From Bdellovibrionales bacterium (GTDB lineage: Bacteria > Bdellovibrionota > Bdellovibrionia > Bdellovibrionales > UBA1609): 64,000 nucleotides of DNA. Under the pieces are notes generated by a model, which made no database searches, was not told where the DNA came from, and saw only the letters and a list, made by a program, of their open reading frames with translations. Positions 20,437-26,361 of this stretch are shown piece by piece. The stretch is taken from the NCBI GenBank assembly GCA_019637855.1, contig JAHBUX010000003.1:1-64000 (forward strand), written 5' to 3'. Each line of letters opens with the position of its first letter. Positions within the stretch are counted from its first letter, which is position 1. The translations under genes and the position numbers were made by a program.

Positions 20437-20973
20437 TTACATGCCGTAGTAAGCTTCGGCGTTGACACCTTTGTGGCACCAGCCGTTGTTATAACCGTAG
20501 CAGGCGCCGCAAGTGTACTGAGGCATACAGCCGCTGTAGGTTTCAACCGCGCCCGCACCGCAACGTCCAGAACAAATGTCGCCTTGACCTCCGGTCGGGG
20601 GATAGCTCGGCTGTTGGCCAGGGAACGGCCACTGTGTTTGTCCGCCAGTGACCTGCACGCACTGATTGTTGTACCAAACAGCATTAGTACCACACTGAAG
20701 TAAACAACCGTACTGTGACATCAGTTTACCAGTTCCGCACTGAGTGGCGGTGCCTTGTCCAAGTTGAGCGGCCGATATACATTGATTGTTGTAAAACACC
20801 ATTCCGGTTCCGCAGCTGGGTAAGCAGCCGACGCCTGTCCACAACTGACCGGCCGCACAGCTGCCCGCAGGTGTAGAGCTATTTTGGTTGCTATCACCGC
20901 TCTTCGAGCAGTTGATCAAAGCCATGGCCACAAAGACCAATCCCAAAACTTTCAGCAAAAATTTGCCGTTCAT
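20437..20973 (-). CDS. Cys-rich repeat lipoprotein
   Basis: 178 residues with a lipobox (ALINC) and a mature part carrying at least 14 cysteines. Two to three repeats share G-C-L-x-x-C-G-T-x-x-V/M-x-Y-N-N-Q-C (near 49-66 and 89-106), and a diverged Gly/Tyr/Cys-rich end follows a Pro-rich stretch. An extracytoplasmic disulphide-stabilised surface protein is likely. No named family is recognised. It is encoded alone between the L,D-transpeptidase and the Gly/Met-rich protein genes. Confidence 0.65.
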   Translation of the reverse strand: MNGKFLLKVLGLVFVAMALINCSKSGDSNQNSSTPAGSCAAGQLWTGVGCLPSCGTGMVFYNNQCISAAQLGQGTATQCGTGKLMSQYGCLLQCGTNAVWYNNQCVQVTGGQTQWPFPGQQPSYPPTGGQGDICSGRCGAGAVETYSGCMPQYTCGACYGYNNGWCHKGVNAEAYYGM

Positions 20974-22556: not shown

Positions 22557-22958
22557 CTAGGCCGCTTTTTTCTCTTCCGTCATAGCTTGCGCCGCCAAAC
22601 GAGCGACATGCAGCAAAGCTTCCCTCAAATCATTGGCCAATTCCTGCTTACGGATCACTCCTTTTTTATAGAGCTTCTCCAGCAGTTCGCCCGACAGACC
22701 GCTTAAGCGTAGCTGTAGGTTACGCGTACGAGCCGCGGCCTGGATTTGCGCCAATATCGGAACGGCATCCATTCCAATCTCGCTGACCTCGCCAAAATGA
22801 AGTACCAGAGCCCTGAGATCAGGATGCTCCAAGATTTCATTTTTGCATTTCTCCAGCTGGTCTGCGACGGAGTCGGCCAGGTTGCCGACAAAAGACACGA
22901 CAAGAAAGAAATCCTTGCGCGCTACAAAGTACTTAAAGTTTTTCTCTGACTGAGACAT
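22557..22958 (-). CDS. STAS-domain protein (anti-sigma antagonist-like)
   Basis: About 133 residues dominated by a STAS fold: a central LRALVLHFGEVSEIGMDAVPILAQI block resembles the V-L-D-L-S-x-V-x-x-I-D-S-S-G loop of anti-sigma factor antagonists, but the phosphorylatable Ser is replaced (I-G-M-D). It may therefore be a constitutive or non-phosphorylated variant. A helical C-terminal extension with charged residues follows. The ATG at 22958 has AAAGGA 8 nt upstream. No kinase or sigma-factor partner gene lies nearby, so the regulatory circuit is unknown. Confidence 0.75.
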   Translation of the reverse strand: MSQSEKNFKYFVARKDFFLVVSFVGNLADSVADQLEKCKNEILEHPDLRALVLHFGEVSEIGMDAVPILAQIQAAARTRNLQLRLSGLSGELLEKLYKKGVIRKQELANDLREALLHVARLAAQAMTEEKKAA

Positions 22959-23171
22959 TCTCAATCCTTTCCACAAACGTTCAACATTCACAGTTTACAG
23001 CTGTCGGCGCGAAGATCCGAACTTTTCCTGTTCGGGTTTCACAATCGTACACGGCGCTGAGGCACCCGATTGATTTGAGCTGAAGCTCCTTCTCCAAGTG
23101 ACACGCTTCAAAAAGAAGCAGCGCGCTTAATTCTTGCCGGCCCCAAACAAAGCCGCTAAAACTCACCCATC

Positions 23172-24278
23172 ATGACCCACATTCTTATCTCGTTTTTAAG
23201 CGCTGTCTTAGCCGTAGCCCAGCCCTCTGAACCCTGTCCCACCCGCGTGCGCGCCGTGTTTGACGTGGGCTCAGGCAGCACCAAGATGAACGTATCACAG
23301 GTTGAGCTCTGCCCCGACAAAACCCGGGTCGTGCGTGTATTGGATGATCGCAGCAGCATGGACGTGGCTCTCGAAGCGGGCAAAGACAGCAGCGGGCGCA
23401 TCCCTGAAAAAACCATTCAAGCGTTGATCGGCGCTCTGAAGCAGCTGAAGGACAAAGCCATCACTTTGGCTAAAGAACTGCCGAAGGAGACCGGGATCGA
23501 ATTTTCCGCGGCCGCCACCCACGCCCTGCGAACGGCGGCCAACAAAAAACAGGTCACGGACCGTATTGAAACCTTAGGCATTCCCGTTTTGGTTCTGACG
23601 CAAGAACAAGAGGCCATCGCCGGCGTGAGTGGCGTGCAAGGCCTGGGCTGTGCGGGTAAACCTATTCTTGTTTGGGATGTGGGCGGGGGCAGTCAACAAT
23701 GGACCCTCCTCGGTTTGAAACCTGAATTCAGCGGACTCCCGTTAGGTGCTGAGGGCTTTAAAAAGAAACTGATTTCCGAGCTCGGCCTGAAACGTGAACT
23801 CAAATGCGAAGCACGCGGCCTCACCCCCAACCCCATCGGCAAAGCCAGCATCAAGAAGGCGGAAGAGATAGCTAGCAAAGAAGCCAGCGCCCTACCCGCT
23901 CCGCTTAAAGCCGGCGATCATTGCGTGATCGGGATCGGCGGCGTTCACAACAAAGCGATCGCCGCACAGATCGAAAAGCAGTGGAGTCAAATCTCCAAAT
24001 GCGCCTGCACTAAGCCCGGTTGTAAACCACAAGCCGACAGCTACAACCGGAGGCAACTGGAATGCTTGGCCGATCTGCTTGCCGACAAAGATGATTGCGA
24101 TAGCACCATCAAAGGTCCCTATTCCACCACCGCCGTTAGCAACCTGTATCTGGTCGCGGGCTTGATGAAGGCGATGAAGATCGACACCGTTCACACCGAA
24201 AACGTGAATATGGGTCATGGCTTGGTGCTCGACCAAAAGCTGCTTACCTTTCGCAATCATTCGTTAGGCCGCGACTAG
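23172..24278 (+). CDS. Exported Ppx/GppA phosphatase homologue
   Basis: 368 residues with the ASKHA fold of exopolyphosphatase / pppGpp phosphatase: phosphate-1 loop VFDVGSGSTKMNV (~28-40) and phosphate-2 loop WDVGGGSQQW (~166-175), plus an IGIGGVHNK adenosine-region motif (~256). A short N-terminal signal peptide (ILISFLSAVLAVAQ) precedes the domain, and about ten Cys, several in a C-A-C-T-K-P-G-C cluster, suggest disulphides. Canonical Ppx/GppA enzymes are cytosolic, so export is unexpected. It is followed after 3 bp by a membrane-protein gene. Confidence 0.78.
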   Translation: MTHILISFLSAVLAVAQPSEPCPTRVRAVFDVGSGSTKMNVSQVELCPDKTRVVRVLDDRSSMDVALEAGKDSSGRIPEKTIQALIGALKQLKDKAITLAKELPKETGIEFSAAATHALRTAANKKQVTDRIETLGIPVLVLTQEQEAIAGVSGVQGLGCAGKPILVWDVGGGSQQWTLLGLKPEFSGLPLGAEGFKKKLISELGLKRELKCEARGLTPNPIGKASIKKAEEIASKEASALPAPLKAGDHCVIGIGGVHNKAIAAQIEKQWSQISKCACTKPGCKPQADSYNRRQLECLADLLADKDDCDSTIKGPYSTTAVSNLYLVAGLMKAMKIDTVHTENVNMGHGLVLDQKLLTFRNHSLGRD

Positions 24279-24281
24279 AAG

Positions 24282-25727
24282 ATGAGTGTGGTAGCAAAAC
24301 TTCGCACTCTGAGCCAAAACCTCACTCTCAGCACCTTCGCGCTTTGGTTCTTTGCATTTTCTTTCACCATCTTTGCGATTCAAGCGAGCGATGTTTTCAT
24401 GTATCTGGCCTTGGCGCGTGACTTCTTGCTCAAGTGGGACTGGAATTCCACAGACCCTTATCTTTACACCGTTACCGACACACCGCTTGTGTGGGCGCAT
24501 GAGTATTTAAGCTACGCTTTGTTTTACGCCGCCCACGCCCTCGCGGGTCTACCTGGTTTGATCTTTCTAAAGTGCTTGATTCTAGCGTTGATGTTTCGTG
24601 TGGTTCTGCTCTTTGGCCCACGCTCACAAAACCGCTCACTTTTGTGGATGGGCCTGTGGGTGCTCGCTGTCATCGCCGCATCCTTCCGCTTTGTCGAACG
24701 CTCGTCAGCGATATCGGATCTGTTCTGCATTCTCTTGACGAGCTGGCTGCTAGCAAGCTCGCAGGTCTCGCGCGCTTTGCTCTTGCGTTTGACTCTGCTG
24801 TTCTTTTTTTGGATTCAATTTCACCCCGGCTTTCCCTTGGGACTCGCGCTTTTAACCCTGTGGGGTGTTTGGCACTGCTTCTTCACACCCGGATTTCAAC
24901 GCCGCGACTTAGCCTGGTTGTTAATTCCGGTAGGAGCGCTGTTTATCAATCCGCTCGGGGTAAACGGAGTGATCTACCCGTTTCAGTTCGCCTTGAACGA
25001 GGCGCAAGTTTTAAAACTGCATAACTTCGAATGGCTCCCTTCCTACAGCCGCGCCTTTCGGTTTGCGCCGGAGATCTTGGCTTTTTGGGTTTTAGGCCTG
25101 GCGTGCCTCTCGCTCTTTTTGCGTGAACGCGTCTGGCGTCGTCTTCCGGCCTGGTTTGCGCTCTTCGCTTTTGTCGCAGCTGTCACCGGTGTGCGTTTTG
25201 TAGGATGGGCCGCATTCGCCCTTGTGCTCACCGTTAAACCGTGGGCCACACTTAAACATGTGCGCATCGCCTGGCCACTGCAAGCCATTGCGCTTCTTCT
25301 GCTACTGACGATCGCGGGTAAGAATTTACTCTACGGTTACAATAGTTCGTCGGGTCCACGCCATCCGGGCGTGCAACTCGATCCCGTCTTCTTCCCCATC
25401 GGCACCCTGGAGTTTCTGCGCCAGAAGCCCATTGCCGGTCGCCTGTACAACACGCAAGACTTCGGCGCTTACATGATCTGGAAAAACTATCGCCCCGTTT
25501 TTCACCATGGCTTTGTCACCGATATGGAGTTTTACAAAAATGATGTAGTGGGCGTGTTTGAGTCCCAGCAGCGTTTTCTAGAGCTCGCACAAAAGCACGG
25601 TTGGACGATGCTTTTGCTGGAGAAGAAAAACTCCTACGCCTACTTCTGGCAGATCCTCTCGCCATTGCCCGATTGGAAGATCGTGGCCGAAGACGACGGT
25701 TCCTACCTTATCTATCGCATCCCTTAG
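24282..25727 (+). CDS. Polytopic membrane protein, GT-C-like
   Basis: 481 residues with roughly ten transmembrane helices and a C-terminal soluble domain of ~110 residues. The first periplasmic loop holds an Asp (ASDVFMYLALARDFLL) and an A-H-E-Y-L-S-Y block, as in C-type (PMT/ArnT-like) glycosyltransferases that use polyprenyl-phosphate sugars. It is 3 bp behind the exported Ppx/GppA gene, so the two are co-transcribed. The specific donor and acceptor are unknown and a non-enzymatic role is possible. Confidence 0.65.
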   Translation: MSVVAKLRTLSQNLTLSTFALWFFAFSFTIFAIQASDVFMYLALARDFLLKWDWNSTDPYLYTVTDTPLVWAHEYLSYALFYAAHALAGLPGLIFLKCLILALMFRVVLLFGPRSQNRSLLWMGLWVLAVIAASFRFVERSSAISDLFCILLTSWLLASSQVSRALLLRLTLLFFFWIQFHPGFPLGLALLTLWGVWHCFFTPGFQRRDLAWLLIPVGALFINPLGVNGVIYPFQFALNEAQVLKLHNFEWLPSYSRAFRFAPEILAFWVLGLACLSLFLRERVWRRLPAWFALFAFVAAVTGVRFVGWAAFALVLTVKPWATLKHVRIAWPLQAIALLLLLTIAGKNLLYGYNSSSGPRHPGVQLDPVFFPIGTLEFLRQKPIAGRLYNTQDFGAYMIWKNYRPVFHHGFVTDMEFYKNDVVGVFESQQRFLELAQKHGWTMLLLEKKNSYAYFWQILSPLPDWKIVAEDDGSYLIYRIP

Positions 25728-25842: not shown

Positions 25843-26361
25843 ATGTTCGTTCGAAGCACACTGTTTGCCCTTGCACTTATCGCCACTCTTCCCGCTTTGG
25901 CGGAACCGCTCAGCGAAATCAAAAGCTGTCATTTACAAGGCCGCATGCGCTTAAGTGAAGCCACCCAGATTTTCTGTGACGGCGATATGCTTATCGACGA
26001 TGGCGCGGAGATCATCACCGAAGGTCACGAACTGCAAATTTGGATCAGCGGCAAAGCTTACTTCGGTGGTTCTTCCAAAGGTTTTCAAATTCGTTCATTT
26101 GATGAAGCCAGTCTGGGCCACGAAGATGGCGCGACTGCCGGCAGCCCGGTCGTTATCTATGCCGCCACCGCATCGGGTTTTTTACGTGTGGATAGCCAAG
26201 GGCTGACTGAAAACGCGCTCGGCGGAGACGTGGCCGTAGAGTACGGTTCGACCTACGACTACGACCACGAACTCTACACCGGTCGTGCCGCCAGTATTGA
26301 GATGGTCCGCGCCGGCGAGATGGTGGCTCTCACCGGTCCCAATCACAAGCCGTTCAATTGA
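25843..26361 (+). CDS. Exported protein, unknown
   Basis: 172 residues with a signal peptide (cut after A-L-A) and an acidic, beta-rich mature part with repeated I/L-x-I-x strands and G-D/D-G turns (for example FCDGDMLIDDGAEIITEG). It may form a small right-handed solenoid or sandwich, but no family is recognised. One Cys pair (~29 and ~45) may form a disulphide. CGGAG lies upstream and a perfect inverted repeat sits just before the start. Confidence 0.65.
   Translation: MFVRSTLFALALIATLPALAEPLSEIKSCHLQGRMRLSEATQIFCDGDMLIDDGAEIITEGHELQIWISGKAYFGGSSKGFQIRSFDEASLGHEDGATAGSPVVIYAATASGFLRVDSQGLTENALGGDVAVEYGSTYDYDHELYTGRAASIEMVRAGEMVALTGPNHKPFN

Follow-up and report, generated by a model that had tools for sequence, protein, structure and literature searches.

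The window, by which we mean the whole stretch of 64,000 nucleotides that was analysed, contains a complete open reading frame with an ATG start for a protein of 368 amino acids (Table 1). A longer N-terminus is not possible because an in-frame stop is found at the fifth codon upstream of the ATG. The gene directly downstream encodes a membrane protein of 481 amino acids, and from the sequence the two genes are likely co-transcribed. No Pfam family matches this neighbour at E ≤ 1, and it has no homologue among the proteins flanking the relatives in a clustering of 90 loci. Several other genes surround the pair. A STAS-domain protein is encoded divergently at 22557-22991 (-), and a predicted lipoprotein of 178 amino acids at 20437-20973 (-) has 14 Cys in its mature part and a Kazal-like match below cut-off. 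An exported protein of 172 amino acids is encoded at 25843-26361 (+). A homologue of it is found near the exported Ppx-like gene of a congener (L034), and MsrA-like genes, recognised by eye, adjoin both.

Table 1. Gene, neighbour and predicted functional residues at the locus. The 77-row alignment, the 22 branch rows and the 7 canonical rows are described in the text.
Feature	Positions	Strand	Basis or conservation
Predicted exported Ppx/GppA-fold protein, CDS, 368 aa	23172..24278	+	ORF, Pfam match, AlphaFold2 model
Predicted Sec signal peptide spanning residues 1-16, with an A-V-A cleavage motif	23172..23219	+	Sequence, hydropathy, N-termini of relatives
Cys22, predicted partner of Cys47	23235..23237	+	Pair all-or-none in 77 rows
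Phosphate loop 1, residues 31-38, DVGSGSTK	23262..23285	+	Asp31 in 77/77 rows; Gly35 where canonical proteins have Asn
Cys47, predicted partner of Cys22	23310..23312	+	Pair all-or-none in 77 rows
Arg120, equivalent of DrPPX R86	23529..23531	+	R in 22/22 branch and 7/7 canonical rows
Glu147, equivalent of DrPPX E114	23610..23612	+	E in 22/22 branch and 7/7 canonical rows
Phosphate loop 2, residues 169-176, DVGGGSQQ	23676..23699	+	Gln176 at the place of the canonical Glu
Branch-specific [ST]PNP motif, residues 218-221	23823..23834	+	N220 and P221 in 77/77, P219 in 76/77 rows
Tyr317, where DrPPX has R271, an Arg that binds polyphosphate	24120..24122	+	Y/H/F in 22/22 branch rows; R in 7/7 canonical rows
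Gly348, where DrPPX has R302, the basic residue in its REG motif	24213..24215	+	R/K in 0/22 branch and 7/7 canonical rows
Next gene, 481 aa, about 7 TM segments	24282..25727	+	3 nt downstream

Proteins of the Ppx/GppA family are usually treated as cytoplasmic enzymes of polyphosphate and (p)ppGpp. The window protein matches the Pfam family Ppx-GppA (PF02541) with 54.6 bits (E 1.4e-14, cut-off 27); no other Pfam family matches it at E ≤ 0.1, the NTPDase profile PF01150 included. It stays far below the cut-offs of the NCBIfam exopolyphosphatase and GppA models TIGR03706 (74.2 against 307 bits), NF008108 (19.3 against 864 bits) and NF008260 (21.2 against 624 bits). Its AlphaFold2 model (mean pLDDT 86.3, pTM 0.85) has the two-lobed ASKHA fold of solved PPX structures, and the top solved-structure match is the D. 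radiodurans exopolyphosphatase DrPPX (PDB entry 8jgr, Z 30.8, rmsd 3.0 over 304 residues). NTPDases rank after the exopolyphosphatases in this comparison (Z 20.8-23.6). By sequence they are matched weakly by the profile of our 77-row alignment (E 0.0015-0.055, profile positions 133-186), while all 77 members match PF02541 at E ≤ 0.001. We class the protein and its relatives as a branch with the Ppx/GppA fold and not as exopolyphosphatase or GppA, because sequence features defining those two enzymes are not found in it.

Matches to the window protein are present in 44 of 78 related genomes, and the best matches are of two kinds, short canonical Ppx proteins versus 24 longer proteins (L002-L025). 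The set of 22 branch rows omits L010, L013 and L015, which are near-copies of Bdellovibrio rows. A profile built from 21 sequences was run against 143 genomes of the class. It gives hits of 301-429 bits in 40 genomes and two hits at 144-145 bits, with canonical Ppx proteins at or below 102 bits. One divergent hit (L151, G051:C30; 144 bits) shows none of the catalytic residues Arg, Glu, Asp and Gln in the alignment; it is possibly a pseudo-enzyme, or reflects a start or alignment problem. A scan of named genomes gave 110 relatives, and we worked with the best 80. These 80 belong to Bdellovibrionota (Bacteriovorax, Halobacteriovorax, Bdellovibrio), Enterobacterales (Rahnella, Pantoea, Tatumella, Lonsdalea, Brenneria, Ewingella, Rouxiella, Serratia and Klebsiella indica), Chlamydiota and a few others. 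The 77-row alignment consists of the window protein and 76 of the 80 loci, leaving out L105, L107, L118 and L131, which are truncated, odd or fused. L131 is the same gene as L145, in a version of 625 amino acids whose Ppx-like domain is followed by roughly 290 additional residues at the C-terminus.

Residues 1-16 of the window protein, MTHILISFLSAVLAVA, are followed by QP. They form a short hydrophobic stretch with few charges that ends in an A-x-A motif (AVA), and are plausibly a Sec signal peptide. The highest 9-residue hydropathy mean in the N-terminus is 2.6, and the pLDDT across this segment of the model is about 60. The 24 longer proteins likewise have extended N-termini, mostly hydrophobic or with a lipobox, whereas in seven short canonical Ppx proteins, two of them from the window's own genome, the loop-1 Asp is located at residue 7-25. 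A crude script-based hydropathy test finds a hydrophobic N-terminus in 77 of the 80 named loci (best 80 of 110 relatives), with start codons chosen by the script to leave 18-110 residues ahead of loop 1, which favours signal detection. The test is failed by L105, which is cut at a contig end, by L107 and by L113. The last failure is due to start choice, as L113 is the same gene as L022, whose N-terminus is hydrophobic. Because its N-terminus is a predicted signal peptide, the window protein would act outside the cytoplasm, probably in the periplasm.

Ten Cys residues are found in the protein (22, 47, 160, 212, 251, 277, 279, 284, 298 and 309), all in the mature part. A congener (L002) matches all ten, with 147 of 365 aligned positions identical (40%). 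Cys22 and Cys47 flank phosphate loop 1 and are never found singly: both are present in 71 and neither in 6 of the 77 rows, the six being five Chlamydiota and one Pseudodesulfovibrio. The pair is also present in 15 of 17 further class hits, a count that includes L147 and L148, where the Cys nine residues before the loop Asp was misplaced by the alignment (raw Cys22 count 13/17), and it is absent from the two weakest hits, L150 and L151. A disulfide between Cys22 and Cys47 likely pins the loop-1 hairpin. The genome itself carries two DsbA-family genes. Comparison with the relatives gives good support to both export and an oxidising compartment, through N-termini with hydrophobic stretches or lipoboxes, the co-varying Cys pair and these DsbA-family genes. 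We regard these two points and the Ppx/GppA fold as well supported and very probable. The first-pass annotation, which had proposed a Ppx/GppA homologue with an export signal, about ten cysteines and an oxidising environment, is borne out by the Pfam match, by the hydrophobic residues 1-16 with their A-x-A end, by the exact Cys count and, as a prediction, by the features just listed. The mature window protein contains 2.84 Cys per 100 amino acids. As a separate matter, Cys number was rejected as weak evidence of export, since among the 58 mechanical ORFs of the window the 19 signal-peptide-like and the 26 cytosol-like ones have 1.09 and 1.12 Cys per 100 amino acids, respectively. The matched residues in L002 and the all-or-none pair carry more weight.

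The active site was compared with the mutational map of DrPPX, which includes D7, R86, E114, D136, E143, R271 and R302 (PMC11234463). The equivalents of D7, R86, E114 and D136 are D31, R120, E147 and D169, which are conserved in all 22 branch rows and invariant across the 21 sequences of the class profile. At the place of DrPPX E143, the Glu of the GGGSTE motif, all 22 branch rows have Gln and all 7 canonical rows have Glu. The same Gln is found in 16 of 17 further class hits, with the divergent L151 as the exception. We argue this point from the 22 rows, chosen by overall similarity, and from the 17 class hits; in the 77-row alignment Trp168 and Gln176 are invariant because the named-genome pattern required WDIGG[GS]S[MQF]Q. 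Lys38 occupies the place of DrPPX H14 and is Lys or Arg in 74 of 77 rows. Towards the C-terminus the equivalents of R271 and R302 are gone in all 22 branch rows, these places having been equated with R261 and R292 of L031 via chain ranges on the assumption of a gapless match over the last 35 residues. The claim that the phosphate loops are intact thus holds for Asp31, Asp169 and Glu147 and fails for the loop-2 Glu (Gln176) and the loop-1 Asn (Gly35).

A Gln in loop 2 typifies NTPDases, where it positions the attacking water. The title of PDB entry 4brd (Q193E) is a hint only at this role. The window protein has the GGxSxQ pattern of GDA1/CD39 NTPDases, with Gln176 as its Gln, and a CD39-type NTPDase of the same phylum (L156) has GGASSQ as loop 2, its Gln falling at the place of Gln176. 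L156 (G321:C24) has a signal-like N-terminus and is the sole hit above cut-off in 290 genomes. As predicted from the alignments, the branch is one in which the hydrolytic core is kept, one key residue is swapped for the type seen in this NTPDase and the polyphosphate path is lost.

Because of the export signal and the changed active site, the protein of this Bdellovibrio relative probably cuts another phosphate compound outside the cytoplasm. Our main reading, with a probability of about 0.4, is a phosphoanhydride hydrolase that is exported and differs from long-chain exopolyphosphatases in function, with nucleoside tri- or diphosphates as the most likely substrates; we infer these substrates because the arginines of the polyphosphate path are gone. 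The protein would be exported via its signal peptide, probably to the periplasm, and would carry the Cys22-Cys47 disulfide and eight further Cys conserved between window protein and congener. A small substrate would bind between the two loops, with its Mg2+-phosphate held by Asp31. As in CD39-type NTPDases, the attacking water would be held by Glu147, Asp169 and Gln176, the last of these standing where a Glu is usual, and the terminal phosphoanhydride bond would be hydrolysed. Hydrolysis of nucleoside tri- and diphosphates could then serve phosphate or nucleotide salvage. Against the nucleotide reading may be held that neither the protein nor its genome has a PF01150 match and that no common neighbour points to such a substrate. 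The genome also lacks the 5'-nucleotidase domain PF02872. By hand count from lists, in which any unlisted genome was scored as lacking the family, this domain is found in 6 of the 40 branch genomes and 16 of the 103 others and thus shows no association.

An exported polyphosphatase, acting on short-chain polyphosphate, tripolyphosphate or pyrophosphate to salvage phosphate from extracellular or lysed-cell polyphosphate, would agree with the nearest solved folds being exopolyphosphatases, with the retained catalytic D, R, E and D and with the basic residue at the H14 place. We consider it unlikely in view of the replaced E143, the missing R271 and R302 equivalents and the low score against the NCBIfam exopolyphosphatase model. 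Nor is the polyphosphate kinase PPK1 in excess where the branch occurs: by the same kind of hand count, with unlisted genomes again scored as lacking it, PPK1 is present in 33 of 40 branch genomes and 83 of 103 others. The branch does not track polyphosphate synthesis, because PPK1 is absent from 7 of 40 genomes with it and from 20 of 103 others. A search of the window's own genome at E ≤ 0.001 returns only the window protein itself, and a family search adds two canonical Ppx-family genes (C10:24984 and C1:503564), the former adjoining ppk1 (C10:23141). Because of these two genes the exported protein is not the sole candidate for housekeeping polyphosphate turnover. They also fit the earlier proposal that the protein departs from the family's standard cytoplasmic role. 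The two substrates proposed with it, polyphosphate or nucleotides, can be narrowed: long-chain polyphosphate is disfavoured by the lost arginines and the Glu143 to Gln change, and nucleotides may be the substrate.

Gene context was tried as a guide to function and rejected, as clustering of 90 loci of more than 8 kb gives varying neighbours and no partner common to the groups. In an alphaproteobacterial MAG (L084:260-5687) the exported Ppx-like gene is followed by ArnT-, ArnE-, ArnB- and ArnC-like genes, named by eye, and L064 lies in a gene run with an ABC-2 exporter, a radical SAM protein and a PMT_2 match of 25.5 against a cut-off of 26.1. On a plasmid of Rahnella sikkimica (L134, NZ_CP019063.1, 549 kb) the gene is located 34 nt after a glycosyl hydrolase family 28 gene. 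The glycan-gene neighbours at L084 and L064 are suggestive only. Together with the position of the window gene 3 nt ahead of a 7-TM protein gene, they would agree with an envelope pyrophosphate or nucleotide-sugar hydrolase serving cell-surface glycan assembly. This is improbable, as other loci have unrelated neighbours with no recurrent partner across groups, the 481-residue neighbour lacks a Pfam match and the PMT_2 match at L064 falls just short. Furthermore, NDP release is not known for periplasmic GT-C enzymes.

The change of Glu to Gln in loop 2 might also inactivate the enzyme, by analogy with DrPPX, where kcat/Km falls from 2.28 in the wild type to 0.04 in E143A and is 0.13 in R271A (PMC11234463). 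A non-enzymatic sensor or binding protein that holds a phosphorylated ligand in its ASKHA cleft would explain why the Glu needed in DrPPX loop 2 is Gln in 22/22 and 16/17 rows not selected for it, and why L151 lacks catalytic residues, but it has little chance of being correct, since all 22 branch rows retain Glu147, Arg120 and both Asp, which binding alone does not demand, and since the NTPDase L156 has Gln there too.

In a quick tree of 55 rows with SH-aLRT supports only (48 exported and 7 canonical rows, the latter all from this order), exported and canonical groups are split with support 100. In the same quick tree 11 Enterobacterales rows (e.g. L070, L097 and L133) group with the Bacteriovoracaceae row L076 with support 99, and this group lies among Bdellovibrionota rows with support 94. 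Gene transfer between Bdellovibrionota and Enterobacterales would fit this tree, which we take as a hint. Enterobacterales are non-predators and often plant-associated. Predation is an unlikely common factor of the branch, whose members come from Bdellovibrionota, Enterobacterales and Chlamydiota and whose Enterobacterales rows group among the Bdellovibrionota rows in the tree. A prey-specific role is likewise unsupported, since the branch occurs in Enterobacterales. The idea of a host- or prey-derived substrate finds no tie, with branch members in Rahnella, Pantoea, Tatumella, Lonsdalea and others.

The branch is widespread and little described. In an annotated record of Rahnella sikkimica its member is labelled only 'phosphatase', among the matches listed in the open-access PMC literature we recognised none that deals with exported Ppx/GppA proteins as a branch, and the words 'phosphatase', 'ppx' and 'gppA' are absent from the main text of a Bdellovibrio proteome paper (PMC12546842). 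Given a conserved exported branch, genes annotated just as phosphatase or exopolyphosphatase may have another role in the envelope. The reading as an exported nucleotide hydrolase makes sharp predictions: the protein is exported, Cys22 is bonded to Cys47, catalysis depends on the Gln, and the substrate is a nucleotide and not polyphosphate. More tentatively, and with the odds against it, the branch may be an unrecognised clade of exported bacterial nucleotidases, derived from the cytoplasmic Ppx/GppA fold in parallel to the CD39 ecto-apyrases through a signal peptide, a disulfide, the loop-2 Glu to Gln change and loss of the polyphosphate path, and spread between predatory Bdellovibrionota and Gram-negatives such as Enterobacterales.

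Two known families are closest to the branch. With Ppx/GppA proteins (DrPPX, EcPPX, AqPPX and HpGppA) it shares the two-lobed ASKHA fold, the DxGS, RxAxN and DxGGGS motifs and the catalytic Glu. Unlike them, it has a predicted signal peptide, the Cys pair, the loop-2 Gln and the PNP motif and is without the R271 and R302 equivalents. Unlike NTPDases, it has no PF01150 match and keeps an RxAxN of Ppx type where, by eye, L156 has ATAGMR. It resembles L156 in the loop-2 Gln and in a loop-1 Thr followed by a basic residue, and, as predicted here, it would be like the GDA1/CD39 ecto-NTPDases (apyrases) an exported ASKHA phosphohydrolase.
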